The notes beneath the pieces are model-generated. The model made no database searches, was not told where the DNA came from, and saw only the letters and a list, made by a program, of their open reading frames with translations. A stretch of 64,000 bases of DNA, taken from assembly GCF_030295995.1 (NCBI RefSeq), contig NZ_AP027365.1:186001-250000 (forward strand), written 5' to 3'. The DNA is from Thalassotalea hakodatensis (GTDB lineage: Bacteria > Pseudomonadota > Gammaproteobacteria > Enterobacterales > Alteromonadaceae). The position numbers and the translations under genes were made by a program. Shown in pieces: positions 8,941 to 26,250 of this stretch. Each line of letters begins with the position of its first letter. The stretch's first letter is position 1.

Positions 8941-10833
8941 TTACTGAGCAGCTACTTTTGAGTTTATCCACTTTTTAAGTAATGACCCATCTACAAATTT
9001 GAAGTTTTGCGGCCTTTTTGGCATAACATTATGACCATCTTGCACGACAAGTAACCCATCTGGATGTTGACTACCCAAAGCGACGCTAGTAACAGCTAAT
9101 CCATCGGTTTCCGATGCACCATCTATCTGATTGTTTAGATCTGCTGAAATACGAAATACGCCCAAAAAGCTGTTGTTTTGATTAATAGCATAAACAGCGT
9201 AACGGTTATTTCCTTGGCTAGATACAATCAAGTAATGGTTACCGGCAACTGTATATAGCCCCATACCTTCAATATCAGCCTTTACACCGCTATTTAAACC
9301 AATAATGAACTCGCTCTTTTGCGTTGAGCCGATGTGTTTTAGCCAAACACCCGTTGCTTCTTCACCATAAAATAACCGCGCTGTTTTATCATCAACTACA
9401 CACCCCTCAGGTTGAGAAGGTACACGCCATTCCGTCACCTTTTTGCCTTTTATCATAGGTGAATCGAAGCTTAGTTGATATTGCTGAAAGCGGCCATCAG
9501 TATCATTAATCCAAACAGAGACCTGTTCATTTATGTTGCTCATACATAAGCCATAAGGATCTGTTAAATCAGTTTTAATGTCGTTAATAAAGGTAGCGTG
9601 TCCCGTTGTTTTATCTATGGCAAAAAGGCTGATGCTATTAGTGGTGCGATTACTTGCAGCCGCGATATCAACACGTTTACCTGCAAATTGTATATCGTAT
9701 CGAATATCAATATTATTAATACGACCAATAGGGATGCTTTGTTTACGTTTTCCTGTTAGATCATAAGTATTTAAGCCAAACTTTTTATCGGTTGTAAAGA
9801 TGATACTTTGCGCTGAATTTTCACTATTTACCCAAATTGCGGGGTCGTCTGCCGCATCACCATAAGCGTTTACGGGTTGTGTTTGTGCGAAAGGTGTCAA
9901 TGATTCAATAACGTCTGTTTCGTGTAAAACAGGTGGCATGATAGTGTGCCACTGCGATGCAACAATTGAGCTACTTTTGTCATCAAACATAAATGCCTGT
10001 AACTTATCGCCGTTACGATACAGCTGTATCGTTTTTGGTGAAATGTCCTTGGGTAAAGGCTTTTCGATAAGTATTTGGTTTCTACTATGATAATACCAAA
10101 ATGTATTTACATCAGGGGAAACTATAGCAATATCACCTTCTGAGGTAGTGTCAATATACTCGACTTCTAACCCTTGTGGTAAGGCTATCAGTTCACGTAC
10201 AACTTCATGCTCAGGATCTGTGGAGTATTGCCACACCCCAATGTTTTCTTCTGCTATTAGTAGTGTTTGTTGCTGATCATCAACTGCACAAGCGTTAATA
10301 TTAGGCCCAACAGCGAATTGATTTATCTCAATGGGGGCTAACAAGCGACTTTTATTATATACGTTGTAATGTGTTGCTATTCCTTGGGAATCGACAGTAA
10401 ATAAATCGATTTGTGAACGATTTCTTTGTAAACACATTGCTTCGAATGAAGTCATTAAAGGCTTAAATTGTTGTTTAATGGTTAACAACGGGGTATTGAG
10501 ATTAACACTTATTAGCAGTATCTCACCGCTATCAACATCGAGTGTTGCTATGATACCCTCGCTATTTTGAGACGGTAACCATCGAAAATCTAAATGTTCA
10601 GCGTTTCGTGAAATAATACTCAATGCTTGATAGTTTTCATCTAATAAAGCAATACCTTGAGACTCATTAATGGCTAAAAAGTAGTGAGTGTTACTATTTG
10701 ATTTAGCAATTTTTGTGAAGAACTGAGAGCTTTTAGCCCAATTATTTTGCTCAGCTGATAAACAATGAGGCGTGATTAACAGCACAAAAGATAATATGCA
10801 TAGCGTATAAAAAAACTTTATGTAACTTGCCAT
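8941..10833 (-). CDS. Secreted beta-propeller phytase (3-phytase family), two-propeller form
   Basis: The 630-residue protein has a signal peptide (hydrophobic stretch ending HCLSAEQ). Its C-terminal half carries the beta-propeller phytase motifs in order: YGDAADDPAIWV, RINNIDIRYDIQF, DLTDPYGLCM, SQPEGCVVDD, FYGEEATGVW, DIEGMGLY, SSQGNNRYAVY, GASETDGLAV. These acidic residues bind Ca2+ and phosphate in Bacillus-type enzymes. The N-terminal half (about 30-320) looks like a second, degenerate propeller, as in tandem phytases where it helps substrate binding. It would release phosphate from phytate in the periplasm or outside the cell. The metallophosphoesterase gene ends two bases before its start, and a TonB receptor lies further upstream on the same strand. 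Confidence 0.92.
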   Translation of the reverse strand: MASYIKFFYTLCILSFVLLITPHCLSAEQNNWAKSSQFFTKIAKSNSNTHYFLAINESQGIALLDENYQALSIISRNAEHLDFRWLPSQNSEGIIATLDVDSGEILLISVNLNTPLLTIKQQFKPLMTSFEAMCLQRNRSQIDLFTVDSQGIATHYNVYNKSRLLAPIEINQFAVGPNINACAVDDQQQTLLIAEENIGVWQYSTDPEHEVVRELIALPQGLEVEYIDTTSEGDIAIVSPDVNTFWYYHSRNQILIEKPLPKDISPKTIQLYRNGDKLQAFMFDDKSSSIVASQWHTIMPPVLHETDVIESLTPFAQTQPVNAYGDAADDPAIWVNSENSAQSIIFTTDKKFGLNTYDLTGKRKQSIPIGRINNIDIRYDIQFAGKRVDIAAASNRTTNSISLFAIDKTTGHATFINDIKTDLTDPYGLCMSNINEQVSVWINDTDGRFQQYQLSFDSPMIKGKKVTEWRVPSQPEGCVVDDKTARLFYGEEATGVWLKHIGSTQKSEFIIGLNSGVKADIEGMGLYTVAGNHYLIVSSQGNNRYAVYAINQNNSFLGVFRISADLNNQIDGASETDGLAVTSVALGSQHPDGLLVVQDGHNVMPKRPQNFKFVDGSLLKKWINSKVAAQ

Positions 10834-10835
10834 GA

Positions 10836-11798
10836 TTATAGTGCCTTATTACGTTGATAACGGTAGATAATTTTGCCTTGATGATCGATAAACTGGACTA
10901 AAAGTGCTTTTTTATTTATGGCTACAGCAGCAAATCCACCTGTGGCTTTTGCAAATTTAGTGAATTTTCGTTGCGCAACGGGTCGCACCTCTGAGCCGCC
11001 ACCAGAAATGAAATGATCAACGGTAGTATGTTGTGGTTTATTGTGTTGCATGTCATGTTCGTGACCTGCGAAATATGCATCTACCTGATACTTTTCTAAT
11101 ATTGGTTCCAGTACTTGCTGAATTTCACTGGTTTTTCCAAAACGTTTACCGCTTGAGTAGAGTGGATGATGGCCGATGACTACTTTCCAATCGGCGGTCG
11201 TCGTAGCAAGCTGTTGGGCTATCCAGTGTAGCTGTTTTGCCGCATCCTGCTTCTGTGTTTCAGCATACTTAGCTTCGTTTTTATAAGCGGGGTTCAATGG
11301 GCTAGTATCAATGAATAAGTAAAGGATTTCTGTACCGTCCTTCAATACGGTGGTTTTCGCGTAGTATTGCTCAGGCATTTGCCAGCGACGGCTAACGTCA
11401 GAGTAATCAATTTGTGCTTGCCAGTTGCCACGATAGTCATGGTTTCCTAGCGTTGGATACCAATCAACGAATAAATGTGGGCCATGATAAATATTCTCAA
11501 AGGCGGTTACCCAGTAAGGATCCTGTATTGAAGCTATACCATTATCATAAAAATTATCGCCTGTCGTTGTGATAAAATCAGGATCAATTTGATAAGCGGC
11601 GATGTCCATCCATTTTGCAACATCACGTTGATAGAAGTGGCCGTTTCGTCCCCAGTCGCCTAACACAAAAAAGTGTTGACCTTTTTCAAATGCAGCAAGT
11701 TGCGCTATATGGTTGCGCTGGTAATGTTCACTGTTATACACATCGGCATAGGCACTAAGGCTTAATAGGAACAATACACTAAAAATAACGTTTTTCAT
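10836..11798 (-). CDS. Purple-acid-phosphatase-like metallophosphoesterase
   Basis: About 320 residues. The ATG at 11798 is preferred over a TTG four codons earlier because it leads straight into a signal peptide (MKNVIFSVLFLLSLSAYADV) and is preceded by AGAGAAG. Metal-ligand motifs of the calcineurin/purple acid phosphatase fold are all present: LGDWGRNG, TTGDNFYDNG (with the Tyr that colours purple acid phosphatases), TLGNHDYRG, VIGHHPLYSSG and FAGHEHDMQ. It should hydrolyse phosphomonoesters in the periplasm with a dinuclear metal centre. Its position directly before the phytase suggests it finishes dephosphorylation of inositol phosphates; this is inference. Confidence 0.9.
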   Translation of the reverse strand: MKNVIFSVLFLLSLSAYADVYNSEHYQRNHIAQLAAFEKGQHFFVLGDWGRNGHFYQRDVAKWMDIAAYQIDPDFITTTGDNFYDNGIASIQDPYWVTAFENIYHGPHLFVDWYPTLGNHDYRGNWQAQIDYSDVSRRWQMPEQYYAKTTVLKDGTEILYLFIDTSPLNPAYKNEAKYAETQKQDAAKQLHWIAQQLATTTADWKVVIGHHPLYSSGKRFGKTSEIQQVLEPILEKYQVDAYFAGHEHDMQHNKPQHTTVDHFISGGGSEVRPVAQRKFTKFAKATGGFAAVAINKKALLVQFIDHQGKIIYRYQRNKAL

Positions 11799-11836
11799 TT
11801 CTTCTCTCAAAAAGTAAAAAGGGGCTAAGCCCTTTA

Positions 11837-12008
11837 GGGTCTGTTGATCTTTCGAGATTAAATTTAGTTGAACCCCGAGGGCAGCGTTTTATGTTATTTA
11901 TACGTCGTTATTGCTCTCTCATGTGGAATAACCACACTTTTAATCGCAATACCTTGTCTAAATACCCATAAACTGCTGCAAAAATAAACACGAAAAATCA
12001 ACAGATCC
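11837..12008. mobile_element. MITE-like element with imperfect terminal inverted repeats and TA duplication
   Basis: The left end reads GGGTCTGTTGATCTTTCG and the right end, on the other strand, GGATCTGTTGATTTTTCG: 16 of 18 bases match. Both ends are flanked by TA (11835-11836 and 12009-12010), the target duplication typical of IS630/Tc1-mariner-derived miniatures. The 172-bp interior has no coding frame. It lies between the TonB receptor and the metallophosphoesterase, so it may affect transcription of the phosphatase and phytase. The transposase family is inferred from the TA target only. Confidence 0.65.
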
Positions 12009-12032
12009 TAGAATTTTATAAACAGTTAACAA

Positions 12033-14720
12033 TTACATTTGCCAACGAAAGCCAAGCTCTAAAGTTCGGCCATATTCTTCATATTGCGCATTTCTATTTC
12101 GTTTATCAAAATAGTTATAGAATGGTTCATTGGTTAAATTAACAATATTAAAATACAGTGTGATTTGTTCGTTTAGATAATATTTTGAAGTGAAATCAAG
12201 TTGTTGATGTTCGTCTTCCATACGCAACATTTCACCATCAATTTCTTCAAAATTTTCACTTTTATGTGCCATGGTTAAGCGTAGATTTACTGTGTCAGTT
12301 TCATAACCCAAAGTGAAATTCATGATAGTGTCTGATTGATTAGGTAAACGTGTTTCGTAACGTTCGCCATTTAAAAAAGTAACCGCATCGGAATCAGAAA
12401 ATGTACCGTTTGCAGCCAGTAATAAGCCATTGTCAAAGGCTTTTACCCAAGATAACTCAATACCTTTTAAGTTGGCGCTTTCACCATTTATTGGCTGTAT
12501 TACTTCGTCAAAACCTTGCCATGCAGGTGTGTCAGATACATCTGCGAATACAACGAAGTTATCAATTTCTTTATAGAATATTCCTGCCGACATAATGCCA
12601 ATATGGCCTGGGTAGTATTCGACAGTGAAATCAAGGTTGGTTGATTCGTATGGCTTTAAGTCAGGGTTACCCACCTCTGCTTCGCGCTCAGTTACGATGT
12701 CACCATCGTCTTCTTCTGTTTTACTTTCAATAATTTGAAAGGCTGCTGCATCTTCAAAATTAGGACGAGAAATTGTTTCGCTAAAGGCCGCCCGTGCGAT
12801 GAGCTTATCTGAAAACTCATAACGTAAGTTTATGCTAGGCAGTAAATGTGAATAATCTTTGTCGACGTGCCAATCGGTATTAACCACTTGTTCAATATCT
12901 GATATTTCATCTTCAATGAGTTCTACACGCATCCCTTGAGTACTGAAATCGGTATTTTCGTAACGTAAACCCGCAACAATGCGCAATTTATCTATATCGA
13001 CTTTTGTCATTAAATAGGCGGCAAAAATATCTTCATTTGAGACATAAGAGGCGCCGTTAGATTCTAATTCAGAGTCGAGTTCAGCTCGTGATAATGAGCT
13101 ACGATTATCGTTAAAATAAAGGCGCAACGCTTCACGACTAAGAGCCGGGCCAAATTGACCTAAACCCCAATCGGGTGATTTTCCTTGAAAGTCACTACCT
13201 AACAGGTCATCAAAGTCGCCATCAAAAATAGCAATGTTTGCATCTGCTGTTTTTTCACGACGACGGTATTTAGCACCCGTTTTGACCTCACCAATATATT
13301 GGCCAAAAGAGACTTGGCGGCTAAGGTCAAACTTAACGCTTACTTCTGTATCTTCTGCTTGATTATCTTCAAATGCGACTTCATCTAATTCATAAAGTGA
13401 CAAATCTGTCGCTGAGCTATCTTGATTCACGATGGGAATTTGAGTCTCTAAGTCGGCACTTATGCTGCTGTTTTCAGTTACAAAGTCATAATAAAGTGCA
13501 CTTGGTTCATTTTCATCAGACTTTGCATAGCCAAATTGATAATCTACGTTCCATAAATCAATAATATGTTCACCGCCAGCGGCGACACTTAATATGGTTT
13601 GAGTTTCTTTTCTATCTTTAGTATCTGCGACAATTTCAGAGTCTTCTTCATCGAAGGTAAAAGTATTCGCTAAGCGAAATTCATCGTCTGAGAATTTGCT
13701 GTACATAGTGCGAAGAAAGTAAGAATGATTAAAGTCTGGGCGATAATCAATATTGACGGCACTGCCAAGGCGTTCACGTGTGATATCATAAAAACGTTGT
13801 TCTACTTCATCTTCACCATTCGACTCGATATTGTCAGATCCAAACTCGCGATTTTGCCAAGACACTGCAGCTGCAACACCTAGCGTATCATTGAAAAGAC
13901 GAGTGAAACTGCCAGATAATTTGGGGCTATTGTCATCACGTAAGTTATTTTGGCTGAGTTGGCCGCTGATGGTAGCGCTATCGCCATTACGATCAAAGGC
14001 ACTAACACTACGCACTTCCACGGTACCACCTATAGCGTCGCCGTCCATATCGGCAGTAACAGATTTCGAAACAGCCAGTGTTTGGATTAGCTCTGATGGA
14101 ATAACATCAAGTGCTACTGAACGAACGCCACCCTCAGGTGAAGGAACATTCAAACCATTAATTGTGACATTATTCAGGTTAGGGTCTATACCGCGAATAC
14201 CGACAAAGCGTCCTTCACCTTGATCTCTTTCAATCGACAAGCCTGGTAAACGTTGCAAAGATTCAGCGGCATTTTGATCGGGAAATTGACCGATAGCGTC
14301 TGCTGACACGATCGAACGAATGCTGTCAGCCACACGCTTTTGGTTAATAGCACTTGCTTGACCTGAACGTTGTGCTCGCACGTACACTTCTTCTATACCT
14401 GTATTTGATAAGGTTAGTGTTAGTGGTGCATTGTCGCCGGCTGTTACATTAATCACTTTAATTAACGGTTTTGCGCCGACATAAGTCACTTTTAGTGTGT
14501 ACTGGCCAACGGGTAATTGTTTAAAATTAAAACTACCACTTAAGTTGGTTTGAGTTTTTACGTTAAGTTCTTCAATTTCGATGCTTGCGCCAGCAAAAAC
14601 TCGGCTATTGGCTGAGTCTGTCACCTTACCAACAATGGTTGATGATAATTGCTCAGCAAAAGCATTCGCTGAAAGCGCTGCTGCACAGGCAAGCGCTAAA
14701 ACAGAAAGTTTGGCTTTCAT
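12033..14720 (-). CDS. TonB-dependent receptor with carboxypeptidase-regulatory-like domain (phytate cluster)
   Basis: The 895-residue outer-membrane receptor has a signal peptide (residues 1-22, ending NAFAEQ), a beta-sandwich regulatory domain (about 28-112; TDSANSRVFAGASIEIEEL), a plug with SIRSIVSADAIGQFPDQNAA and RLPGLSIERDQGEGRFVGIR, and a barrel ending in the aromatic C-terminus LELGFRWQM. It belongs to the large TonB receptor family common in Caulobacter, Xanthomonas and Alteromonadales (TIGR01782-like). It shares strand with a purple-acid-phosphatase-like enzyme and a phytase, so its cargo is probably a phosphorylated compound such as phytate or its products. This is inference; no ligand residues can be assigned. 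No convincing Pho box was found upstream. Confidence 0.9.
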   Translation of the reverse strand: MKAKLSVLALACAAALSANAFAEQLSSTIVGKVTDSANSRVFAGASIEIEELNVKTQTNLSGSFNFKQLPVGQYTLKVTYVGAKPLIKVINVTAGDNAPLTLTLSNTGIEEVYVRAQRSGQASAINQKRVADSIRSIVSADAIGQFPDQNAAESLQRLPGLSIERDQGEGRFVGIRGIDPNLNNVTINGLNVPSPEGGVRSVALDVIPSELIQTLAVSKSVTADMDGDAIGGTVEVRSVSAFDRNGDSATISGQLSQNNLRDDNSPKLSGSFTRLFNDTLGVAAAVSWQNREFGSDNIESNGEDEVEQRFYDITRERLGSAVNIDYRPDFNHSYFLRTMYSKFSDDEFRLANTFTFDEEDSEIVADTKDRKETQTILSVAAGGEHIIDLWNVDYQFGYAKSDENEPSALYYDFVTENSSISADLETQIPIVNQDSSATDLSLYELDEVAFEDNQAEDTEVSVKFDLSRQVSFGQYIGEVKTGAKYRRREKTADANIAIFDGDFDDLLGSDFQGKSPDWGLGQFGPALSREALRLYFNDNRSSLSRAELDSELESNGASYVSNEDIFAAYLMTKVDIDKLRIVAGLRYENTDFSTQGMRVELIEDEISDIEQVVNTDWHVDKDYSHLLPSINLRYEFSDKLIARAAFSETISRPNFEDAAAFQIIESKTEEDDGDIVTEREAEVGNPDLKPYESTNLDFTVEYYPGHIGIMSAGIFYKEIDNFVVFADVSDTPAWQGFDEVIQPINGESANLKGIELSWVKAFDNGLLLAANGTFSDSDAVTFLNGERYETRLPNQSDTIMNFTLGYETDTVNLRLTMAHKSENFEEIDGEMLRMEDEHQQLDFTSKYYLNEQITLYFNIVNLTNEPFYNYFDKRNRNAQYEEYGRTLELGFRWQM

Positions 14721-17147: not shown

Positions 17148-17148
17148 T

Positions 17149-17160
17149 GGTCTAGACCAA
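17149..17160. promoter_or_regulatory. PhnR (GntR-type) operator in front of phnW
   Basis: Perfect 12-bp palindrome TGGTCTAGACCA. It begins one base after the phnW -10 hexamer and covers the expected transcription start, 24 bases before the ATG, so a bound repressor would block initiation. The same 12 bases occur upstream of the TonB receptor at 26193, the other end of the 2-AEP gene set, which encodes a GntR/UTRA regulator. Assignment to PhnR is inferred from form and context. Confidence 0.75.
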
Positions 17161-17184: not shown

Positions 17185-18276
17185 ATGGAACATTATTTAC
17201 TTCTGACACCAGGCCCCTTGACTACATCTACGTCAGTTAAGCAGGCTATGCTGAGAGACTGGTGTACTTGGGACGATGATTACAATATTGAAATTGTTGA
17301 AAGTATCAGAAAAAGCTTAGTTGAACTAGCAACTAAGAAAGCAGGTTATACTTGTACTTTAATGCAAGGAAGTGGTACCGCATCAGTTGAATCGGTGCTT
17401 GGAAGCGCAATTAGTGAGCATGACAAAGTGCTTATTATTGACAATGGCGCTTACGGCCTTCGTATGGCGGAAATTTGCACGTTAGCGGGTATAAATCATA
17501 CCGTGGTTTCCTTTTCAGAAACAGAAATGCCTGATGTAGCCGACATTAAAAAACGTATCATCGAAGATGGTAATGTTACGCATTTAGCAATGGTGCATTG
17601 TGAAACAACTACAGGTATGTTGAATCCTATAAAGCAAGTTGCGCAATTGTGCCAAGAACAGAATCTGGTGTTTATTTTGGATGCCATGTCTAGCTTTGGA
17701 GGCTTAACATTTGACATTGGTGAATTAGATATTGGCTTTATGATCAGTTCTGCAAATAAATGTATTCAAGGTGTGCCAGGCTTTGGGTTTATTATTGCAA
17801 AACAAACACTGATGGAACAGTGCAAAGGAAAGGCACATTCACTCAGTTTAGATCTGTATGATCAATGGCACACCATGCAAACCTCAAATGGTAAATGGCG
17901 TTTTACTTCTCCTACCCATGTTGTCAGAGCCTTTTATCAAGCTTTGCTTGAACTTCAACAAGAAGGTGGAATCAATCAACGTGCTGAAAGGTATGAAAAA
18001 AATCAGAGAGTATTAGTTGATGGTATGCGCAAGTTGGGCTTTAGTACCTTACTACCTGATGAAATGCAATCACCGATTATCACTTCGTTCATCTCGCCAA
18101 CGTCTGAACGTTACAATTTTAAATCGTTTTATCAACGATTAAAGGCAGAAGGGTTTGTTATTTATCCTGGTAAAGTTTCAAATGCTGATTGCTTTAGAAT
18201 CGGTAATATTGGAGAGGTGTATCCTGAGGATATTTCCAAACTACTTAATGCAATAGAAAAAGCTATGTATTGGTAA
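17185..18276 (+). CDS. phnW: 2-aminoethylphosphonate:pyruvate transaminase
   Basis: The 363-residue fold-type I PLP enzyme moves the amino group of 2-aminoethylphosphonate to pyruvate, giving phosphonoacetaldehyde and alanine. Family motifs include [10 protein letters not shown] at the N-terminus, [12 protein letters not shown] (PLP phosphate binding), [10 protein letters not shown] with Asp166, and [15 protein letters not shown] with Schiff-base Lys192. Length agrees with known PhnW. It is monocistronic, runs towards phnR, and is separated from it by a hairpin. A GntR-type operator overlaps its promoter, so it should be induced by 2-AEP or a related metabolite. The product feeds PhnX, encoded at 21083. 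Confidence 0.97.
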
Positions 18277-18286
18277 TTATTATTCA

Positions 18287-18313
18287 CGATAAGGCGAAAA
18301 TTTCACCTTATCG
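18287..18313. terminator. Terminator between convergent phnW and phnR
   Basis: CGATAAGG (18287-18294) pairs with CCTTATCG (18306-18313) and the inner GAAAATTTC is itself self-complementary. The plus strand continues ATTTTT, giving a U tract for phnW transcripts. The two genes converge here. Confidence 0.7.
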
Positions 18314-18320
18314 CTGATTT

Positions 18321-19025
18321 TTAATAACTATCAACTTTAATTTCTATGGCGCCATGTACCCAATATTCAATGTTATAGTCTACTAACGCTTTGTGCTGTG
18401 AAAAGCGTTGGCGAATTATTTTTAAACATGATGCGCCACTGTTTAAATGTAATAATTTGGCGACGCTTTCAGGTAAGGCGGTTACATGGATACTGCTACG
18501 TTCAGCAGTCACATTAACATTGTAATCATCCTTGAATATAGCAGTAATTGAACCTGTTAACTCTTTTTCTGCTAAACCATGGAAATGCTCAGCTTGGCAA
18601 TAAATTTCTTCCACCATCACAGGTCGATCATCTAAAGAGCGAACACGACAAATTTGATAAAATTCAGCATGACTATTTAAGGAAAATGCCGACGTTATGG
18701 CTTGAGATTTTTCACCGACAAGCGCAGAGCAATCAATGGATACTAAACGAGTATCTGCATCAAAGCTTTGTTCTTTGGCTAATTGATAAAAATTTACTTT
18801 ATTAACTGGGTTCCATTCTAATCTGGGAGGGCAAATAAACCAGCCTTTTCTGTTTTGTCGATAAATTATGCCTTCCACTTCTAACCGCATGAGTGCTTCT
18901 CTAACGGTAATTCGCGTTGAATTAAAATGCCCCTGTAATTCACGCTCTGAAGGTAATTTCTTCAAGGTGTTGTCTTGTGCAATTAATGTAAACAAATAAT
19001 CGCGAATTTCTTGGTAAAGTAACAT
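18321..19025 (-). CDS. phnR: GntR/HutC-family regulator of 2-AEP utilisation (PhnR-like)
   Basis: The 234-residue protein has an N-terminal winged HTH of GntR type (LPSERELQGHFNSTRITVRE, then LMRLEVEGIIYRQNRKGWFI) and a C-terminal UTRA effector domain (about 75-230; EFYQICRVRSLDDRPVMVEE, with ending VDYNIEYWVHGAIEIKV). HutC-subfamily proteins bind short palindromes and release them on ligand binding. It is the last gene of the minus-strand 2-AEP operon; its ATG directly abuts the TAA of the HD gene. Two TGGTCTAGACCA palindromes, before phnW and before the receptor at 26193, are its probable targets, making it auto-regulated through the operon promoter. The ligand is presumably 2-AEP or phosphonoacetaldehyde. 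Confidence 0.9.
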   Translation of the reverse strand: MLLYQEIRDYLFTLIAQDNTLKKLPSERELQGHFNSTRITVREALMRLEVEGIIYRQNRKGWFICPPRLEWNPVNKVNFYQLAKEQSFDADTRLVSIDCSALVGEKSQAITSAFSLNSHAEFYQICRVRSLDDRPVMVEEIYCQAEHFHGLAEKELTGSITAIFKDDYNVNVTAERSSIHVTALPESVAKLLHLNSGASCLKIIRQRFSQHKALVDYNIEYWVHGAIEIKVDSY

Positions 19026-19649
19026 TTACCTGTTGTACTCCAATGTTGAACTTGTGCCTACTTCTTCTTTAAGAACTTGGATGATCAAAGGTAGCCAAGG
19101 CTTAAGCGTGGTGAAGCTTTTTAGTGAAACATGCAAGTTTGGCTTACCTAAATCGTCATATTGTCTTAACGTCAATGCTGTAGAAAAACAAGCGAGACGT
19201 TCAAAGTCTTTCAGTTCGTCGTTCGACATTTTTCCACCTTGTTGCTGCAATGTGTGTTGACTTGCTAAAGACAAGTGAGCCGTTTTTTCGTTTTGGTTAA
19301 TTAACGTCACTAAATATCGTTTCGCTTGAACATGATAACGAATTGGCTGATAAACGCTAGCAGGAAAACCGCGATCTTTAAGCCAGTTTGCCCCTATGCT
19401 GGCATGCTCTTTATGACCGAAGTCATCAACACCCGTAAATTTCTGCTTGTCTGCGATAAAATGACCAATGTCATGCAGTAGTGCTGCGGTGATTAAAGTG
19501 GCACTGGCATTATCTTGCTGTGCATGCCATGCGCAGCTTACCGCATGGATGAGTTGACTGCATTGTTCACCATAGTGTAAATGCCCATACTCTGTGAATA
19601 ATTGTTCAATGTCGTGAATAGTCGACATTATTTTACGCTCGTTCATCAT
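19026..19649 (-). CDS. HD-domain protein of phosphonate operons (PhnZ-related)
   Basis: The 207-residue protein has the HD signature HDIGH (59-63), an upstream His35 and FGHKEH further on, the ligand set of an HD di-iron centre. It belongs to the phosphonate-operon HD family that includes PhnZ, a mixed-valence di-iron oxygenase cleaving 2-amino-1-hydroxyethylphosphonate to glycine and phosphate. PhnZ needs PhnY to hydroxylate 2-AEP first; no PhnY-like Fe/2-oxoglutarate enzyme is in this window. Near the N-terminus it reads HYGE (25-28); as I align it, the Tyr of the PhnZ lid is shifted by one residue relative to the Glu. Activity is therefore uncertain. An internal ATG at 19628 is a possible alternative start. 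Confidence 0.82.
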   Translation of the reverse strand: MMNERKIMSTIHDIEQLFTEYGHLHYGEQCSQLIHAVSCAWHAQQDNASATLITAALLHDIGHFIADKQKFTGVDDFGHKEHASIGANWLKDRGFPASVYQPIRYHVQAKRYLVTLINQNEKTAHLSLASQHTLQQQGGKMSNDELKDFERLACFSTALTLRQYDDLGKPNLHVSLKSFTTLKPWLPLIIQVLKEEVGTSSTLEYNR

Positions 19650-19655
19650 CTGCTC

Positions 19656-21056
19656 TTATTTATCAGCTTTGCCTGCAGCTGCAGCGAATTTTGCTAACTG
19701 AATATCAAACCACGTTGGCTGCTGTTCTAGCGCTTCTGCTTGTTCTTTACGCATAATCGAGCGCTTGACTAATTGTGCTCCTAGATAACGGATGGGTTCT
19801 GGTGGAAATTTAGAAATAGGGCCTTTCGCCATCGGTGAACGGGTCCATTCATTATCGATACCTAATATCATAGAAGATAAAATATCGCCGCCAAGATAAC
19901 TTTGCACAACGCCATTACCCGAATAACCTAACCCATAATACACATTTTTTTGACCTGCCAGAGTGCCAAAAAAAGGTAAGCCCGTGGTGGAACGATCAGA
20001 TGCACCAGTCCAACTTGTGGTGAAATCACAAGGCAAACGAGGGAAAAACTGTTTAAATGCATTGGTTAATTGTTGTTGGTAACGGCTTGGTTGATCAAAC
20101 GCCGGCAACATTCGGTTGTTAAATGCAAAGAGGTTCCCGCCTTTACCTAACATTAAACGGCCATCGGGCGTGCTTCGATAATAATGCACAAAAATACGTG
20201 AATCTGCGATCGCTTTACCATGGTCTAGTCCCACATTTGCTAATAATTTAGGCATGGGTTTGGTGATCACCATATCAGAAGATACTAAGGTGTAATAACG
20301 GTTAAAGTCGTTAAATAATTGTCCCATCCAAGCATTAACAGCAAACACTAATTTTTCAGATATTATTTCCCCTTGAGGGGTTTTTACCTGAATGTTCTGT
20401 TCTGTAGCTTTATGCGATAGATAAGGGCTTTGTTGATAAATGAAAATACCCATCGATAAGGCATGTTTAACCAGCCCTAATACAAGTTTCCCTGGGTGAA
20501 GACTACCAGCAGCAGGTGATTCAATGCCACTAATGGCATGTTTTGATCCTGTTACTTGGGATAAGTAGTCTTTTGTTTTCTGTTGCCATCGGTTTATATT
20601 GTGGGCTTTTAGTAGAGGAAGTGGTTGTGTCACTATTGATTGTTGTGCTGAATTTGTTGCTGTATAAATGGCACCATCAGTTCGTATATCCGCATTAATA
20701 TGGTGCTGTTTACAAAAGTTAGCAATATCAAACACTGCTTGTTCTGACGCTTGTACCAAGCGCTTTGCTTCATTAATACCAAATAATTGTATTAATGAAG
20801 CAAATTTAGTTGAAAAAGTCAGCATACAACCACCATTACGGCCAGATGCACCTTGTCCGCATACCCCTTTTTCAACAATAACAACCTGTAAGGTAGGGTC
20901 TTGCTGCTTGATTTTTATTGCTGTCCACAATCCCGTATATCCACCACCTATAATACAGACATCGGCTGTAATTTTTCCTTGTAAAATAGGTATGTTGGGT
21001 ATTTCACATGATGTTAATGCATCGTTAAACCAAAATGCTTGGTGTTGATTGCTCAC
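19656..21056 (-). CDS. FAD-dependent amine oxidoreductase of the 2-AEP operon (DadA/DAO family)
   Basis: The 466-residue protein starts with GTG. It carries the FAD-binding motif VCIIGGGYTGLWTA (about 34-45), followed by VVIVEKGVCGQGASGRNGG and a C-terminal YYGLGYSGNGVVQSYLGG segment, as in the D-amino-acid oxidase superfamily (DadA, glycine oxidase, gamma-glutamylputrescine oxidase). Related enzymes in phosphonate clusters (the Pbf group) oxidise 2-AEP or its N-methyl derivative to phosphonoacetaldehyde, which would feed PhnX without the transaminase. Substrate here is inferred from the operon: phnX lies 26 bases upstream and the HD gene follows after 6 bases. Confidence 0.87.
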   Translation of the reverse strand: MSNQHQAFWFNDALTSCEIPNIPILQGKITADVCIIGGGYTGLWTAIKIKQQDPTLQVVIVEKGVCGQGASGRNGGCMLTFSTKFASLIQLFGINEAKRLVQASEQAVFDIANFCKQHHINADIRTDGAIYTATNSAQQSIVTQPLPLLKAHNINRWQQKTKDYLSQVTGSKHAISGIESPAAGSLHPGKLVLGLVKHALSMGIFIYQQSPYLSHKATEQNIQVKTPQGEIISEKLVFAVNAWMGQLFNDFNRYYTLVSSDMVITKPMPKLLANVGLDHGKAIADSRIFVHYYRSTPDGRLMLGKGGNLFAFNNRMLPAFDQPSRYQQQLTNAFKQFFPRLPCDFTTSWTGASDRSTTGLPFFGTLAGQKNVYYGLGYSGNGVVQSYLGGDILSSMILGIDNEWTRSPMAKGPISKFPPEPIRYLGAQLVKRSIMRKEQAEALEQQPTWFDIQLAKFAAAAGKADK

Positions 21057-21082: not shown

Positions 21083-21892
21083 TTAAGGGCGTAAATGCCT
21101 AACTCTTGCTGCAGTAATTTTTTGAATAACTGGAATGGCATCAGCTAAAGAGTCGACCACATAATGTGCGCCAGCTTGATACAAGGTATCATAAGCTTTT
21201 TGTTTTAATGCGGCTTGTTCTGGCGTTGTTAATGCTTGCCATTCTGACTCTGTAAGACCTACTGCATTGCCTGTTAATGCAAGCCCTACGGTCCACATAC
21301 CTGCGGTTAAGCCTTCTGTAATACCTGGTGCAGAATCATCAAACTTAATACAGTTTGCTACATCTGTTACGCCAAGCTCAATAACATTCTGTAAAGCCAT
21401 CCATGGGCCAGGTCGAGAGCCCGCGGGTAGATCGTCACTTGCTACCCATGCATCGGGTTGATAGCCATAATCGGCTGCCACAGGTACTAATATTTCCATT
21501 ACTTCACGCGGGTAACCAGAGCAAGAACCCACTTTGATATCGTGTGTTTTTAACCATTCAATTGTGCGTAAAGCACCCGCGATGGGTTGTGCATGATCAG
21601 CTACTTTTGCTTTTTGTAGGGGCATAAATGTTTGATAAATTTCATCAACAACGGTATCTGTCATCGATTGACCAAATTGCTTTTTCCATCGCGCATCTAC
21701 ACTGGATAGTTGGCCTAAGGTTTTAATATGATCCCATTTCCCCATACCCATCGGCACACGAGCTTCGTCAAGCGACACCTCAAAATTAAACGCTTGTTTA
21801 AAGGCTTCAACAAAGATGGTTGTTGGTGCAACTGAACCATAATCAACTACGGTGCCAGCCCAATCTAATACTACGGCTTCTATCTTAGACAT
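21083..21892 (-). CDS. phnX: Phosphonoacetaldehyde hydrolase (phosphonatase)
   Basis: The 269-residue HAD-superfamily enzyme cleaves the C-P bond of phosphonoacetaldehyde to acetaldehyde and phosphate. The nucleophile loop [14 protein letters not shown] contains Asp10 and the following Ala12; Lys52 in [12 protein letters not shown] corresponds to the Schiff-base lysine of Bacillus cereus PhnX. Later HAD motifs are [12 protein letters not shown] and the acidic [15 protein letters not shown] good ribosome site (GAGGAACA) precedes the ATG. With PhnW this completes the 2-AEP degradation pathway. It is in the minus-strand operon behind the transporter, with a 28-base gap. Confidence 0.97.
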
Positions 21893-21920: not shown

Positions 21921-23264
21921 TTACGCATTTGAGTTGACTGAGTAATGGCTTGCATTGCTCTGCATGACAACATCCACTGTTTTTTTGGCGTTGTGTTGGC
22001 GTAAACGAAATGAAAAATAAATTAATGAAGTGATAACTAACAATGCACCTGCACAGGCAACGAAGTAACACAAAAAAATAAAAAATTGTAACCAGCTTAT
22101 TTCTGGCGTCGCAAAGGTGCGGTAAAGCAGCATGCCAACACTGCCAACGTATCCGGCAGAATCAGCTAAATAAATCAGAAACCCTGCATTGGCGGTAGAA
22201 CCCACTGCAGAAATCATGCGGTCGAATAAAAAGCAATTATAGGGAATATAGGCAATATATAAGCCTGCACCTAACCATACCATCCAACTTTTACCGTCGA
22301 TCCACTGTTGTTGAAACGCAAAAGTAGTCGCGCCAAGTAACAAGCAACCAAAGCAAATAAAGCCATGGTTAGTGAGAAAAGCTTTGCGATTGTCTTTTAC
22401 TAATACCATGGCAGCTAACACCACTAAGACTACTCCAGCAATTCGTATACCTGCGTAAGTAAATATGGCAGGTTCTTCTCCATACCCAAGTGCATGCCAA
22501 ATTTCAGCAGAAAAATTATCGCGAAAATCTCGAAGTCCAGTGAATAATAAAAAGCTGAAAATAAGGAGTAAAATACCAGGGGCGTATTGCGTAAAAAACT
22601 GCCAACGCTGTTTTCCTGTCATTGGTTTCCTGGCTTGACGAGCGAATTTATCACTTGCCGAAGGTGCCGGTGTTTGTGCAAGAAAATACACTGAGATAAA
22701 TAAAGGAATTATAAATAACGCACCCGTAGCTGCTGGCATCCAGTATTCAGTTACTTGTAAATCTGTTAATAACCATTGTCCAACCGTTCGAACTAAACCC
22801 GATGCAACAATGAAAGTAACGCTGAGAAAGGCCCCGAGTATTTCAGATGTTTTTCGACCTTCTAAAAAGCTAAAAACAATCCCCCAAATCATGCCTAGAG
22901 GTATACCATTTGCAAACATCATTAAGGGCTTCCAAGGTTCTGGTACCACTGCAAATAGCATGAGCGCACATTGTGCTAGCATGACTAAGCTCAGCAACAT
23001 AAAGGCGCGTCGCGCGGCTGGCAGTTCAGATACTACTTTTATGCCAATGAATTTAGATAACATATACCCTAGTACTTGCGCTAGAACGATCGCGACTTTG
23101 AAATCTAATGCGCCAAAAATATCGCCGCTTTCTTGGTAGGTAGCAACTGAAAAGGGCTTACGAAAGGCATACATGCAAAAGTAAGTCATGAATGCTGCTG
23201 AAGAAGCATAAATTACGAATAACAGAGTATGGCAGCGTTGAAGATAATTATGTACAGCAGACAT
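21921..23264 (-). CDS. MFS-like inner-membrane transporter, DUF5690 type (candidate 2-AEP permease)
   Basis: The 447-residue protein has about twelve hydrophobic segments and an N-terminal FMTYFCMYAFRKPFSVATY stretch. That stretch recalls the organophosphate:phosphate antiporter branch of the major facilitator superfamily and is typical of the DUF5690 family. It lies between the TonB receptor and phnX, and no PhnSTUV/PhnCDE-type ABC transporter is present. The simplest reading is that the receptor brings a phosphonate across the outer membrane and this protein across the inner one. That role is inferred from position. A 9-bp-stem hairpin precedes the gene. Confidence 0.82.
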   Translation of the reverse strand: MSAVHNYLQRCHTLLFVIYASSAAFMTYFCMYAFRKPFSVATYQESGDIFGALDFKVAIVLAQVLGYMLSKFIGIKVVSELPAARRAFMLLSLVMLAQCALMLFAVVPEPWKPLMMFANGIPLGMIWGIVFSFLEGRKTSEILGAFLSVTFIVASGLVRTVGQWLLTDLQVTEYWMPAATGALFIIPLFISVYFLAQTPAPSASDKFARQARKPMTGKQRWQFFTQYAPGILLLIFSFLLFTGLRDFRDNFSAEIWHALGYGEEPAIFTYAGIRIAGVVLVVLAAMVLVKDNRKAFLTNHGFICFGCLLLGATTFAFQQQWIDGKSWMVWLGAGLYIAYIPYNCFLFDRMISAVGSTANAGFLIYLADSAGYVGSVGMLLYRTFATPEISWLQFFIFLCYFVACAGALLVITSLIYFSFRLRQHNAKKTVDVVMQSNASHYSVNSNA

Positions 23265-23292
23265 TGATCACTTACCTGTAATATTGAATAGA

Positions 23293-23315
23293 GCCACCTG
23301 AGGTGTTCAGGTGGC
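23293..23315 (-). promoter_or_regulatory. Intercistronic hairpin between the 2-AEP TonB receptor and transporter genes
   Basis: GCCACCTGA (23293-23301) and TCAGGTGGC (23307-23315) form a perfect 9-bp GC-rich stem with a five-base loop in the 91-base gap between the two genes. There is no U tract, so it is more likely an attenuating or 3'-protecting structure than a full terminator. Confidence 0.5.
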
Positions 23316-23355
23316 ACATTAACGTGAAGACTACTCTCCACAGGTGACAATCACA

Positions 23356-26193
23356 TTAAAAGAAATCGTACTTAATGCCGATTTGACCACGGATACCGTA
23401 GTATTCAATTTGATTTGGTCGCTGCTCTGAACCGGTAAAATATTGTAATGGTTCATCGGTTAAGTTATTGAGTTCGAGATAAATCATGGCATTGTCTGAA
23501 ATGTTATATGAGGCTGTGGCATCAACACTGGTGTAATCACCGTAGTAAGTGTCTAAACTGGTATTACTGCCATGGTCTTCAATGTATTCGCCTTTATGGT
23601 TCACAGCTACACGCGCGGCAAAATCTCCATTATCGTAATAAACTGCAAGGTTATACAGCATGTCCGCTTGTCGTGATATTTTAACGTTATCTTCACGACC
23701 CGGGATCTCCATTTCAGAATCCATCAGGGTAAAGTTGAATGAAAGGCCAAAATTATCAAGTGAATCATCAATGAAACCTAAGCTTGAATTTGTAGCAAAT
23801 TCAATACCATGTAACCATGCATCATCACCATTAAGTGGACTTTTAACGGTCACTGATTGGCCACGATAAGTACCTTGATAACTTTGTGAAAACACGGGAT
23901 CAATAATTTGTTTGTAGAAATAACCTAAGGTAATCACACCAGCATCATCAAAATAGTATTCATACATCAAGTCTAAGTTGTTCGCATAGGTTGGATCTAA
24001 GTCAGGGTTACCAGACTTGAGTTGATTTTCCATTTCTAGATAGGTTGCTCCTGGCGAAAGTTGGCCAAAATCAGGACGTGCAAAACTACGTGTTAATGCT
24101 AATCGAATATTGCTTAAGTCACTTTGATGATAAGTAATGTGTAGAGATGGCAATACCGACCAATAATCTTTGCCGCCTTTTTCTTGCTCGACTGATGTGC
24201 CGTCATCATTTTGAACCGCAACATAACCGTTAACATCGGTTTTAGTTTGCGTTGCTCTGATCCCACCTAAGACTGTCCATTGGTTTGAAGGCTTATACGT
24301 AGCCATACCATAGAAAGAAGTGTGGGTTTCTTCCAGATCAAAATTTCGGCTTAAACCACCACCATTTTCAACAACTTCAGAATCGCCTGATAAAAAGGTA
24401 AGTTTGTGCTTGTTATCAACCCACCAACGTTTAAGTTCTTTTACAGGAATCACCTGCGAAAAGTGCTGTTGATAATCAATGTTAAAATTATTTAAATAAT
24501 CAGAGCGACCAGGCTGGTCAGTAAGGCTTACCCCTAGTTCATTGGCGACATCTGCTAGTGTTGGTGTTGCGCCATATTCTGCTTCATTCCAACCATAAAA
24601 CTTGTCATAAAAGCTCGCGTTACGTTCTTTACTTCGGTATTTTGCCCCAGCTTTAATTTCGAGTTGTTCACTGGCCTGATGATAAATATCAAATTGAGCA
24701 ACAATTTTATCTCGCTCTTTGATATCAATGCCGTAAAGCTCTACATCTGCTAACACTGCTTGTGTTGGATCCATTACCCAGTTATTAGGTAAATGCATAC
24801 CAATGTCTAAGGCAGGATCAGTGCCGCCATCTATCTCGTTATAAATTAATCCGCTGCCCGTATCGACACCATTCCTGACACCTACATCACCGTCAAAATC
24901 TACACCTTGCTTAAATTTAACAACGTAGTAAGCGTTATCTTCGGCATTTGGTATATCACCGTATTCAAATGTATTTTCGTAGGTGCTTAATTTCCATTCG
25001 AGGCGTGTGTCGATATTAAAATCATGCTCACCACCTACTTCAAATCCTTGCATTTCGGTAATCAGTTCATCGTAGATATGTTGAAGTTCAACACGATTTT
25101 TGTTGTAACGGACACGGTGTTTATAATGGGTTTCTTCGTCTGATAAGGTGCCGTACATTGCTTTAGCATACACAAGACCGCTATCTAATAGGTATTCGCC
25201 AGCTAAATTCAGACCGTACGTTGCACGAGTACCGGTATAATCTCTAAGCTCTAATCGGTGAATACCAGCCACACCATCTTCATCTATTTCACGTCTAGGT
25301 TCGTAATTGTCTGTCGCCCAATCTCGTTCCCAGGCGGTAGCGTTGACTAAAAAGCCAAACTTTCCGTCATCTGAACGATCACCATAAAGTACATTGAACG
25401 AGTGGCTACCACCTTCGGCTTTTTCTGAATCACCAACCCCAATGTTTACTGAAAGTAGCTGTTCATCAGGAGCACGACGCGTAGTAAAATTAATATTACC
25501 GCCTATAGCATCGCCTTCCATATCCGGTGTTATGGCTTTTGATACTTCTACCAGTTCAATCATATCAGTGGGGAAAAAATCAAATGCAACTGCACGACTT
25601 GTTGTTTCCTCTTCTGCTGTCGGTAACCGATCGCCGTTAATTGATGTTGAGTTCCATTGAGCAGGAAGGCCACGAACAGCAACAAATCGCCCTTCACCTT
25701 GGTCACGTTCAATCGATACGCCGGGCATACGCTGTACCGCTTCAGCTGCATTTCGGTCAGGTAATTTGCCAATTCCATCAGCAGACATTACATTTTTAAT
25801 GTTGTCTGACTCTTTTTGCATGTTCATTGCCTTCATTTGGCCACGACGCATGTAGCCAACGGCAACTACTTCTTCGAGCGTGGTTTTATCGACATTTAAA
25901 GTTAAGTTACCTAATTGAGTTAACTTATCGTCAATCACACTGATACTGAATTCAGCCGAAGGGTAGCCTAAGTAGTCCACACGAATTGTATGCTCACCAG
26001 CAGGTAAACGGTTTAAGGTGAATTGCCCCTGATTGTTGGTGGCTGTTTTGCCGTCGCTGCCAATTAATGTAATTTTAGCTCCGGATAAAGCACCTGTTTT
26101 ATCCATGACAGTTCCAGAAATAGAACCATCGGCAAAAGCACTTAAACTAAAGCAGGCAAGTAAGCTGGCTGCAATTGGTGTAAGTTTTGTCAT
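23356..26193 (-). CDS. TonB-dependent receptor of the 2-AEP operon
   Basis: The 945-residue outer-membrane receptor has a signal peptide (ending LSAFADG), a carboxypeptidase-regulatory-like domain (about 25-110; SGTVMDKTGALSGAKITLIG), a plug with MSADGIGKLPDRNAAEAV and MPGVSIERDQGEGRFVAVRG, and a barrel ending IGIKYDFF. It resembles the receptor at 12033 in layout and in the plug, so they are paralogous family members. A GntR-type operator 46 bases upstream and the genes that follow (transporter, phnX, oxidoreductase, HD protein, phnR) tie it to 2-AEP use. It probably imports a 2-AEP-containing molecule too large or too dilute for porins; this is inference. Confidence 0.92.
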   Translation of the reverse strand: MTKLTPIAASLLACFSLSAFADGSISGTVMDKTGALSGAKITLIGSDGKTATNNQGQFTLNRLPAGEHTIRVDYLGYPSAEFSISVIDDKLTQLGNLTLNVDKTTLEEVVAVGYMRRGQMKAMNMQKESDNIKNVMSADGIGKLPDRNAAEAVQRMPGVSIERDQGEGRFVAVRGLPAQWNSTSINGDRLPTAEEETTSRAVAFDFFPTDMIELVEVSKAITPDMEGDAIGGNINFTTRRAPDEQLLSVNIGVGDSEKAEGGSHSFNVLYGDRSDDGKFGFLVNATAWERDWATDNYEPRREIDEDGVAGIHRLELRDYTGTRATYGLNLAGEYLLDSGLVYAKAMYGTLSDEETHYKHRVRYNKNRVELQHIYDELITEMQGFEVGGEHDFNIDTRLEWKLSTYENTFEYGDIPNAEDNAYYVVKFKQGVDFDGDVGVRNGVDTGSGLIYNEIDGGTDPALDIGMHLPNNWVMDPTQAVLADVELYGIDIKERDKIVAQFDIYHQASEQLEIKAGAKYRSKERNASFYDKFYGWNEAEYGATPTLADVANELGVSLTDQPGRSDYLNNFNIDYQQHFSQVIPVKELKRWWVDNKHKLTFLSGDSEVVENGGGLSRNFDLEETHTSFYGMATYKPSNQWTVLGGIRATQTKTDVNGYVAVQNDDGTSVEQEKGGKDYWSVLPSLHITYHQSDLSNIRLALTRSFARPDFGQLSPGATYLEMENQLKSGNPDLDPTYANNLDLMYEYYFDDAGVITLGYFYKQIIDPVFSQSYQGTYRGQSVTVKSPLNGDDAWLHGIEFATNSSLGFIDDSLDNFGLSFNFTLMDSEMEIPGREDNVKISRQADMLYNLAVYYDNGDFAARVAVNHKGEYIEDHGSNTSLDTYYGDYTSVDATASYNISDNAMIYLELNNLTDEPLQYFTGSEQRPNQIEYYGIRGQIGIKYDFF

Positions 26194-26238: not shown

Positions 26239-26250
26239 TGGTCTAGACCA
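26239..26250. promoter_or_regulatory. PhnR (GntR-type) operator in front of the 2-AEP TonB receptor operon
   Basis: Perfect palindrome TGGTCTAGACCA, identical over 12 bases to the site before phnW. It lies 46 bases upstream of the receptor ATG. An AAATAAT stretch directly before it on the minus strand may be the -10 element, the same spacing as in the phnW promoter, though no good -35 is visible. Confidence 0.75.

Follow-up and report, generated by a model that had tools for sequence, protein, structure and literature searches.

How does a bacterium in whose genome no convincing ATP-binding cassette (ABC) importer for 2-aminoethylphosphonate (2-AEP) was found acquire the substrate of its 2-AEP degradation genes? 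The question is raised by a 64,000-nucleotide stretch of DNA from Thalassotalea hakodatensis (G000:C1:186001-250000, hereafter the window; the genome is a single contig of 4.28 Mb, 100% complete), in which a 945-residue TonB-dependent receptor and a major facilitator superfamily (MFS) protein of the Pfam family DUF5690 share an operon with genes for aminophosphonate breakdown. We propose that these genes belong to a PhnR-type regulon that probably frees, imports and degrades 2-AEP compounds. It is likely, judging from sequence, that the receptor and the DUF5690 protein serve aminophosphonate uptake, and the balance tips slightly toward bound 2-AEP as the target. The proposal is based on gene content, linkage, co-occurrence, the predicted DUF5690 fold and a shared palindrome; from these we infer transport, its direction and substrate, regulator binding, ester cleavage and the order of the steps.

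On the minus strand the genes are transcribed in the order TonB receptor, DUF5690, phnX, flavin adenine dinucleotide (FAD)-dependent oxidoreductase, PhnZ-like HD oxygenase and PhnR-like regulator, with gaps of 91, 28, 26 and 6 bp among the first five (Table 1). The phnW gene lies outside the operon, its 3' end facing that of the regulator gene, and has its own upstream region. PhnW and PhnX both score over the cut-offs of their models (TIGR02326 and TIGR01422), making the PhnWX hydrolytic pathway for 2-AEP complete in the window. A preliminary description, made from the letters and open reading frames (ORFs) alone, had placed the receptor and DUF5690 in one operon with phnX and phnR. Both ORFs lie where it put them, their domains are confirmed by Pfam and NCBIfam scores, and receptor, DUF5690, phnX and regulator do occupy one strand; the regulator can be named only PhnR-like, because its TIGR03337 score is below the equivalog cut-off, and the two genes between phnX and the regulator, for the FAD oxidoreductase and the HD oxygenase, had gone unnamed. 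FAD oxidoreductases of such clusters convert N-methyl-2-AEP to phosphonoacetaldehyde (PMC10590968). The 945-residue protein is a TonB-dependent receptor by domain content, its plug and beta-barrel domains both scoring over cut-off, and its signal peptide was assigned by reading.

The association of this receptor with phosphonate breakdown is conserved in relatives, where the preliminary description had proposed to look for it. Among 295 sampled genomes of the family, our own and another of the same species included, PhnX occurs in 13, the receptor (threshold E <= 1e-100) in 14 (all 13 PhnX genomes and G149) and DUF5690 in 20 (the same 13 and seven more); with relatedness ignored, the hypergeometric P for the co-occurrence of PhnX and receptor is about 9e-22. 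The receptor adjoins PhnX or lies one gene off, on the same strand, in all 14 PhnX loci of the 13 genomes, and DUF5690 falls within the receptor-phnX run in 10 of the 14, so that the receptor is tied to PhnX more tightly than DUF5690 is. A collection search with DUF5690, in which 80 of 107 related stretches were kept, recovered the order receptor, DUF5690, phnX, FAD oxidoreductase in 26 of the 80 loci (L002-L023, L025, L026, L036 and L054, with broken genes in L018 and L036), spanning Thalassotalea, Colwellia, Pseudoalteromonas, Paraglaciecola and another gammaproteobacterium. The locus set and the genome set are not independent, since several loci lie in the same genomes (for example, L003 in G211 and L007 in G240). 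At the Colwellia maritima locus (L036:7073-16209) none of the matches to receptor, DUF5690 and FAD oxidoreductase is in one piece, through either real decay or sequencing error.

Every receptor orthologue whose neighbourhood was read adjoins phosphonate genes, and these are not always the same ones. In G149, which has no PhnX match, a homologue with 53% identity heads a carbon-phosphorus (C-P) lyase operon containing a GntR gene, a phosphonate-binding protein (PF12974, 177.2 bits), an ABC permease and, by Pfam, PhnG, PhnH, PhnI and PhnJ. The C-P lyase operon with the receptor homologue at its head (L126:507-14470) stands together with an ABC phosphonate importer. Genome G570, from another family of the same class, has a 54% homologue with a PhnX-like protein of the haloacid dehalogenase (HAD) type, a TIGR03364 FAD oxidoreductase, an amidohydrolase whose likeness to PhnM was judged by reading and, also by reading, DUF5690 and a GntR-like gene. 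In Sphingobium (L032) the consecutive genes encode TIGR03364, PhnX (302.9 bits; cut-off 220), DUF5690 and a homologue of the receptor that is split in two. In a tree of 43 receptors these three outlying homologues group with that of the window with support of 94/90, just below the tool's own standard and with a long-branch warning for the outlying receptors; L002, L018, L036, L130, L133, L137-L139 and rows under 600 aa were omitted. At the threshold used for the family, the receptor was found only in the window's own genome in an order sample of 119 genomes. A class sample of 369 yielded it only there and in G570, and a plasmid search gave no match at 1e-60. Chance neighbourhood was rejected on the co-occurrence, the varied contexts and the operator described next.

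Comparison of the upstream regions of the receptor and phnW revealed a perfect 12-bp palindrome, TGGTCTAGACCA, in both. In shuffled windows 0.05 sites are expected at one mismatch or fewer, and none of 100 shuffles reaches two. At the same stringency 28 of 32 orthologue loci have the palindrome before the receptor. In this count near-identical strains are taken separately, as are the broken L018 and L036, while L002, L137-L139 and L141 are not included; the exceptions are L125, with two mismatches, L032, L126 and L136. It precedes phnW in 20 of 24 proteobacterial loci by script, or 21 with L009, whose called start overruns an exact site. The degenerate form TGGWCTAGWCCA has 23 sites in 12 genomes, of which 8 precede the receptor, 7 phnW and 6 a PF01663 gene, 21 in all; tallies with degenerate or mismatched sites prove little alone. 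Two operator-like sites also lie upstream of DUF5690 where it stands outside the operon, as seen in six genomes (G174, G207, G236, G307, Bowmanella and Steroidobacter); the upstream region there also belongs to a divergent HD or phnW gene. A site at G307:C1:107496, inside an ORF, and an exact palindrome at L125:8584-8595 (G307:C18), flanked by a metallophosphoesterase gene and a 193-aa ORF that has no Pfam match, were treated as unexplained. The one-mismatch sites at G000:C1 109080 and 2223137 were rejected as operators, the genes there looking unrelated by reading, and sites inside the DUF5690 genes of L010 and L056 were read as chance.

The T. hakodatensis genome holds three exact copies of the palindrome, two of them being those before the receptor and phnW. 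An ABC importer under the same operator, which the preliminary description had named as the finding that would speak against its proposal, was not found in the genome; instead the third copy lies about 25 bp before the likely start, set by reading, of a 655-aa protein that, also by reading, is a lipoprotein and has a PF01663 type I phosphodiesterase domain (62.4 bits against a cut-off of 23), which fits the earlier guess of a bound 2-AEP compound. A Protein Data Bank (PDB) sequence search with this protein gave no match at E 0.01. An MFS-like 543-aa gene lies about 330 bp downstream on the same strand. An exact site also precedes the phosphodiesterase gene in G179, of the same species, and a homologue (61%) in G240, and TGGACTAGTCCA precedes a more distant one (40%) in G378. 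In G240 (L177:3077-7564, contig C12) the phosphodiesterase gene is divergent from an ORF of 717 aa, by reading a further TonB receptor. In G174, G207 and G236 the protein concerned has 729 aa with PF01663 and LamG-type domains; the exact palindrome lies 37-43 bp ahead of its called start, and its gene is divergent from phnW, which there has its own variant site. In G307 the variant TGGTATATACCA stands some 15 bp ahead of the likely start of a PF00149 metallophosphoesterase, a secreted protein whose gene is divergent from the receptor. For the phosphoesterases, start codons were chosen by reading their signal peptides. A secreted phosphoesterase with the palindrome or a variant upstream is thus present in 8 of the 13 PhnX genomes. 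Six of these PF01663 proteins have in common motif residues that are typical for the enzyme superfamily.

For the inner membrane, DUF5690 is the proposed carrier. The DUF5690 protein of the window is 100% identical to its counterpart in Thalassotalea sp. PP2-459, and its AlphaFold2 model (predicted local distance difference test [pLDDT] 90.1, predicted template modelling score [pTM] 0.87) matches MFS carriers: Foldseek ranks 1-3 are G6PT, and rank 1 of VIA-align is SLC37A4 (G6PT; Z 33.2, 363 residues, root-mean-square deviation 3.2 A), with other MFS carriers within about 2 Z units. G6PT is a transporter of glucose-6-phosphate. An alignment of the window's sequence with those of 45 of the 80 loci has a mean column identity of 55%, and none of its 46 sequences departs from R35, K71 and R245. 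A three-sequence profile of organophosphate:phosphate antiporters (OPA) pairs these residues with GlpT R45, K80 and R269, the pairing of R35 with R45 appearing in both GlpT alignments; GlpT R45 and R269 are phosphate-binding residues. Against single sequences DUF5690 aligns best with GlpT (P 0.004) and UhpT (0.0086), UhpC and seven other Escherichia coli carriers giving 0.079-0.64. Because of the fold rank and the lead of GlpT and UhpT in the sequence comparison we liken DUF5690 to organophosphate carriers, and because it has no TIGR00881 match we do not file it as a member of the OPA family; on fold and sequence it may work like an organophosphate carrier, resembling OPA antiporters. Conserved inorganic-phosphate-binding residues are also mentioned in PMC8316502. 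Searched against PDB sequences, the DUF5690 profile matched nothing at E 1, and the term DUF5690 was absent from the results of a literature search that left most subscription journals outside.

No other importer in the genome competes convincingly for the role, in agreement with the preliminary description, which had noted that none of the known ABC systems for 2-AEP was present. The 2-AEP ABC binding protein model TIGR03261, which stood in for separate PhnS and AepS models, reaches at best 56.4 bits against a cut-off of 392.75. The phosphonate-binding family PF12974 has one partial match, 27.9 bits and just over its cut-off of 27, in an ORF (L084) that scores higher as SBP_bac_3 (47.9 bits); no ABC gene was seen by reading among ORFs of at least 180 aa in 11 kb around it. 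A hidden ABC importer was rejected at L082 and L083, which are general solute-binding proteins (SBP_bac_11/6/8/1), as at L084. No GlpT-type carrier scores over the TIGR00881 cut-off in the genome: the best match, L187, has 127.3 bits against 407.75 and adjoins, by reading, sugar-kinase-like and alginate-lyase-like ORFs, and the gene behind the phosphodiesterase, L188, matches weakly (32.6 bits); both were rejected as carriers of the GlpT or AepP type. The other TonB receptor of the window was likewise rejected as a partner, being remote from the 945-residue receptor and sitting with a phytase.

We therefore offer a model whose steps are put together from the predicted functions of the genes. 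A phosphodiesterase, secreted or at the cell surface and with its gene elsewhere in the genome, would free 2-AEP or small 2-AEP-bearing fragments from esters; the 945-residue receptor would pump the aminophosphonate compound through the outer membrane; and DUF5690 would carry the small aminophosphonate through the inner membrane. PhnW, acting on 2-AEP, the FAD oxidoreductase, probably acting on N-methyl-2-AEP, and PhnX would then yield acetaldehyde and phosphate, and a 1-hydroxylated analogue may be the substrate of the PhnZ-like HD oxygenase. Control of the gene set would be exerted by the PhnR-like protein through TGGTCTAGACCA. Active outer-membrane uptake of a 2-AEP compound, as suggested in the preliminary description, is favoured by linkage, co-occurrence and the operator; its further suggestion of a phosphonolipid or phosphonoglycan substrate may be right, and is carried over here as a conjecture.

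The neighbourhoods of DUF5690 in other bacteria extend this pattern. Of 98 mapped loci 82 were kept, six of them without a called DUF5690 ORF; the near-copies L012, L016, L018, L019, L034, L047, L127, L130, L133 and L137-L139 were left out, as were L122-L124 and L126, fetched for the receptor, and relatedness is uncorrected. An aminophosphonate-type enzyme lies within six genes in 50 of 76 loci, which is a lower bound. A TonB-type outer-membrane protein is present in 39 of these 50 loci versus 4 of the 26 others, and a phosphoesterase of cluster c12, c17 or c37 in 15 of 50 versus 4 of 26; a separate earlier tally found SusC nearby in 13 of 72 loci. In Parapedobacter (L081) one strand carries in a row SusC, SusD, a LamG metallophosphoesterase, PbfA (637 bits; cut-off 525), a PF01663 enzyme, a PhnX-like HAD protein, DUF5690 and a gene of the FAD-oxidoreductase cluster. 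In L060 a PF01663 gene with a secretion tail stands behind two TonB receptors, and in the second G236 cluster (L136) a PF01663 gene with PAN domains directly precedes the receptor on the same strand. One-strand Bacteroidota runs combining DUF5690 with SusC/SusD or TonB receptors, alkaline-phosphatase-superfamily enzymes and aminophosphonate enzymes were seen at L081:186-12390, L060:3-14291 and L067:3403-12764. DUF5690 without a nearby match to the window's other phosphonate proteins was seen at L055, L057, L064, L071, L072, L076 and L080, mostly in Caulobacter, where it may have another role or serve an unlinked pathway.

Several observations weigh against the proposed regulon. A reversed control pattern gives 10 matches in the 12 genomes that have 23 real sites, and in our own genome control sites outnumber real ones at one mismatch or fewer (6 versus 5); no operator within three mismatches precedes the receptor in L126, L032 or L136. 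Five of the 13 PhnX genomes (G211, G305, G406, G297 and G399), one of the same genus, yielded no operator-bearing phosphoesterase, their TGGWCTAGWCCA sites lying at receptor and phnW only. DUF5690 is outside the run in 4 of 14 PhnX loci (G174, G207, one G236 cluster and G307, where it is about 10 kb away), receptor-phnX operons without DUF5690 occur in three Thalassomonas-type genomes, and DUF5690 may have other uses, because 26 of 76 loci have no called aminophosphonate enzyme within six genes, at least one of these (L032) being a miss of the ORF caller. The kinship of DUF5690 with the E. coli GlpT/UhpT/UhpC profile is weak (P 4.5e-4, hhalign probability 33%), the pairing of R245 with R269 appears in one of two alignments, with a four-residue offset against GlpT alone, and DUF5690 has no NCBIfam match at 1e-3, the OPA profile included. 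The predicted structure of the receptor is poor (pLDDT 64). Finally, a TonB pump is not strictly needed, because free 2-AEP is small enough for porins.

The size of free 2-AEP leads to the most serious alternative, in which the receptor and DUF5690 take only free 2-AEP or small derivatives at very low concentration and the phosphodiesterase is accidental or otherwise employed. The operon enzymes act on small free aminophosphonates, no extracellular hydrolase is encoded within the operon, and in G211, a member of the same genus, sites stand before receptor and phnW but no such phosphodiesterase was found. We consider this alternative rather unlikely, since it leaves to coincidence that two unlike phosphoesterase families, PF01663 and PF00149, lie behind the palindrome or a variant in most PhnX genomes, and that PF01663 genes adjoin the receptor in L136 and share the run of SusC, SusD, PbfA and DUF5690 in L081. 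Many TonB receptors import iron chelates, and the receptor could likewise import a non-phosphonate such as a metal chelate or a cofactor for the pathway; receptors for colicin I and for iron transport are among its weak relatives of solved structure, and TonB receptors of the cyanobacterium Nodularia rise on methylphosphonate together with an iron-starvation response (PMC5955973). This is very improbable given that the phosphonate enzymes found with the orthologues form three kinds of set, the HD gene being absent from some, and that receptor and phnW have the operator in common. As for DUF5690, it could be a sensor, as UhpC of the same fold class is annotated to be for glucose-6-phosphate, or it could export a product, for example phosphate, a conceivable role because PhnX releases phosphate inside the cell. 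Neither is probable: the neighbouring regulator is a GntR protein, the models used found no other 2-AEP-type inner-membrane importer in the genome, and operator-like sites persist upstream of DUF5690 outside the operon.

The uptake regulon that we prefer may be one case of something wider. It is conceivable, at somewhat less than an even chance, that Gram-negative bacteria have dedicated phosphonate-ester utilisation systems that parallel polysaccharide utilisation loci and form a main recycling route for the 2-AEP of phosphonoglycans and phosphonolipids. Such systems would combine a phosphoesterase, secreted or at the surface, with a TonB pump (a TIGR01782 receptor in Proteobacteria, SusCD in Bacteroidota), a DUF5690 carrier that possibly takes up 2-AEP in exchange for phosphate, and one or another set of phosphonate-cleaving enzymes. 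The phosphoesterases would come from two or more unlike families, many of them carrying fused domains that bind glycan or matrix, the parts of the system being joined in Alteromonadales-type genomes by one GntR-type operator. The regulon provides a testable gene set (receptor, carrier, regulator, operator and phosphodiesterase) for the recycling of bound ocean phosphonates, for which the literature consulted named no gene set, and a likely function for DUF5690, a Pfam family without one.

Table 1. Features of the aminophosphonate locus (window positions unless stated otherwise) and of the distant operator-bearing gene
Feature	Position	Strand	Basis
phnW, 2-aminoethylphosphonate-pyruvate transaminase, convergent to operon	17185..18276	+	TIGR02326 582.5 bits vs 400.8
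PhnR-like GntR/UTRA regulator	18321..19025	-	PF00392 and PF07702; best model TIGR03337 211.9 bits, under cut-off 296.75
HD-domain oxygenase, PhnZ-like	19026..19649	-	PhnZ 4n71/4mlm E 1e-24; TmpB 6npa E 1e-19; TIGR03276 173.8 bits, under cut-off 214.6
FAD-dependent aminophosphonate oxidoreductase, Pbf-type	19656..21056	-	TIGR03329 657 bits vs 632.8
phnX, phosphonoacetaldehyde hydrolase	21083..21892	-	TIGR01422 321.8 bits vs 220; matches solved phosphonatases
DUF5690 membrane protein, 447 aa, MFS fold	21921..23264	-	PF18943 522.6 bits vs cut-off 25
TonB-dependent receptor, 945 aa	23356..26193	-	PF13715 (CarboxypepD_reg-like), PF07715 plug, PF00593 barrel; TIGR01782 476.7 bits vs cut-off 310
Operator palindrome TGGTCTAGACCA, 25 bp upstream of phnW start	17148..17159		sequence; conserved in relatives
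Operator palindrome TGGTCTAGACCA, 45 bp upstream of receptor start	26239..26250		sequence; conserved in relatives
Inverted repeat between convergent phnW and regulator gene ends	18277..18320		sequence and fold
Strong hairpin in 91-bp receptor/DUF5690 gap	23265..23355	-	fold -29.4 kcal/mol for 91 nt
Lipoprotein phosphodiesterase	L149:9161-11128 (G000:C1 about 95160-97127)	+	only other exact operator of genome

Two further elements of the locus may bear on expression: the inverted repeat between phnW and the regulator gene is a possible two-way terminator, and the hairpin in the receptor/DUF5690 gap may set the expression ratio of the two genes. Elsewhere in the window (8941-14720, minus strand) a second organophosphorus cassette encodes a TonB receptor of 895 aa, a calcineurin-like phosphoesterase of 324 aa and a phytase (PF02333) of 630 aa, and probably serves phytate.

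How does the proposed regulon compare with known systems? The preliminary description held that 2-AEP uptake mostly uses ABC systems, and the ABC importers PhnSTUV, AepXVW and AepSTU do serve 2-AEP uptake in other bacteria, while in this genome no convincing one was found; the generalisation needs qualifying for AepP of Pseudomonas putida BIRD-1, a GlpT-related MFS permease for 2-AEP encoded near phnWX or phnWAY genes (PMC8316502). AepP is a single-protein MFS carrier for 2-AEP, as proposed for DUF5690. The two differ, on the published description of AepP, in that AepP is 27.75% identical to GlpT (E 9e-37), whereas DUF5690 has a 98-residue GlpT match at E 0.001 and its own Pfam family; the word TonB is absent from the main text of the AepP paper. 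With the OPA antiporters GlpT, UhpT and G6PT, DUF5690 has a common MFS fold, G6PT coming first, and R35 and K71 aligned with GlpT R45 and K80, but it differs from them in lacking a TIGR00881 match and in its weak sequence similarity. A literature search that left most subscription journals outside found no TonB receptor for 2-AEP named in Proteobacteria. In Bacteroidetes there is a precedent for TonB-type organophosphorus uptake in PusCD of Flavobacterium, co-localised with phosphodiesterases and phosphonate-degrading enzymes (PMC8115612), and several Bacteroidota DUF5690 loci look like a phosphonate version of Pus. PusCD are SusC/SusD pairs induced by phosphate depletion, whereas the window has a lone TIGR01782 receptor behind a GntR-type operator, with no SusD among the cluster ORFs searched against Pfam. 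The TonB-dependent transporters described for phytate (PMC3400609) are similarly receptors tied to organophosphorus use, for phytate and not for phosphonate, and phosphonate release from glycans by enzymes of the alkaline-phosphatase family has been proposed (PMC8931226). What is new here relative to the known systems is the proteobacterial setting, the lone receptor, the DUF5690 carrier and one operator joining uptake, breakdown and often a secreted phosphoesterase.

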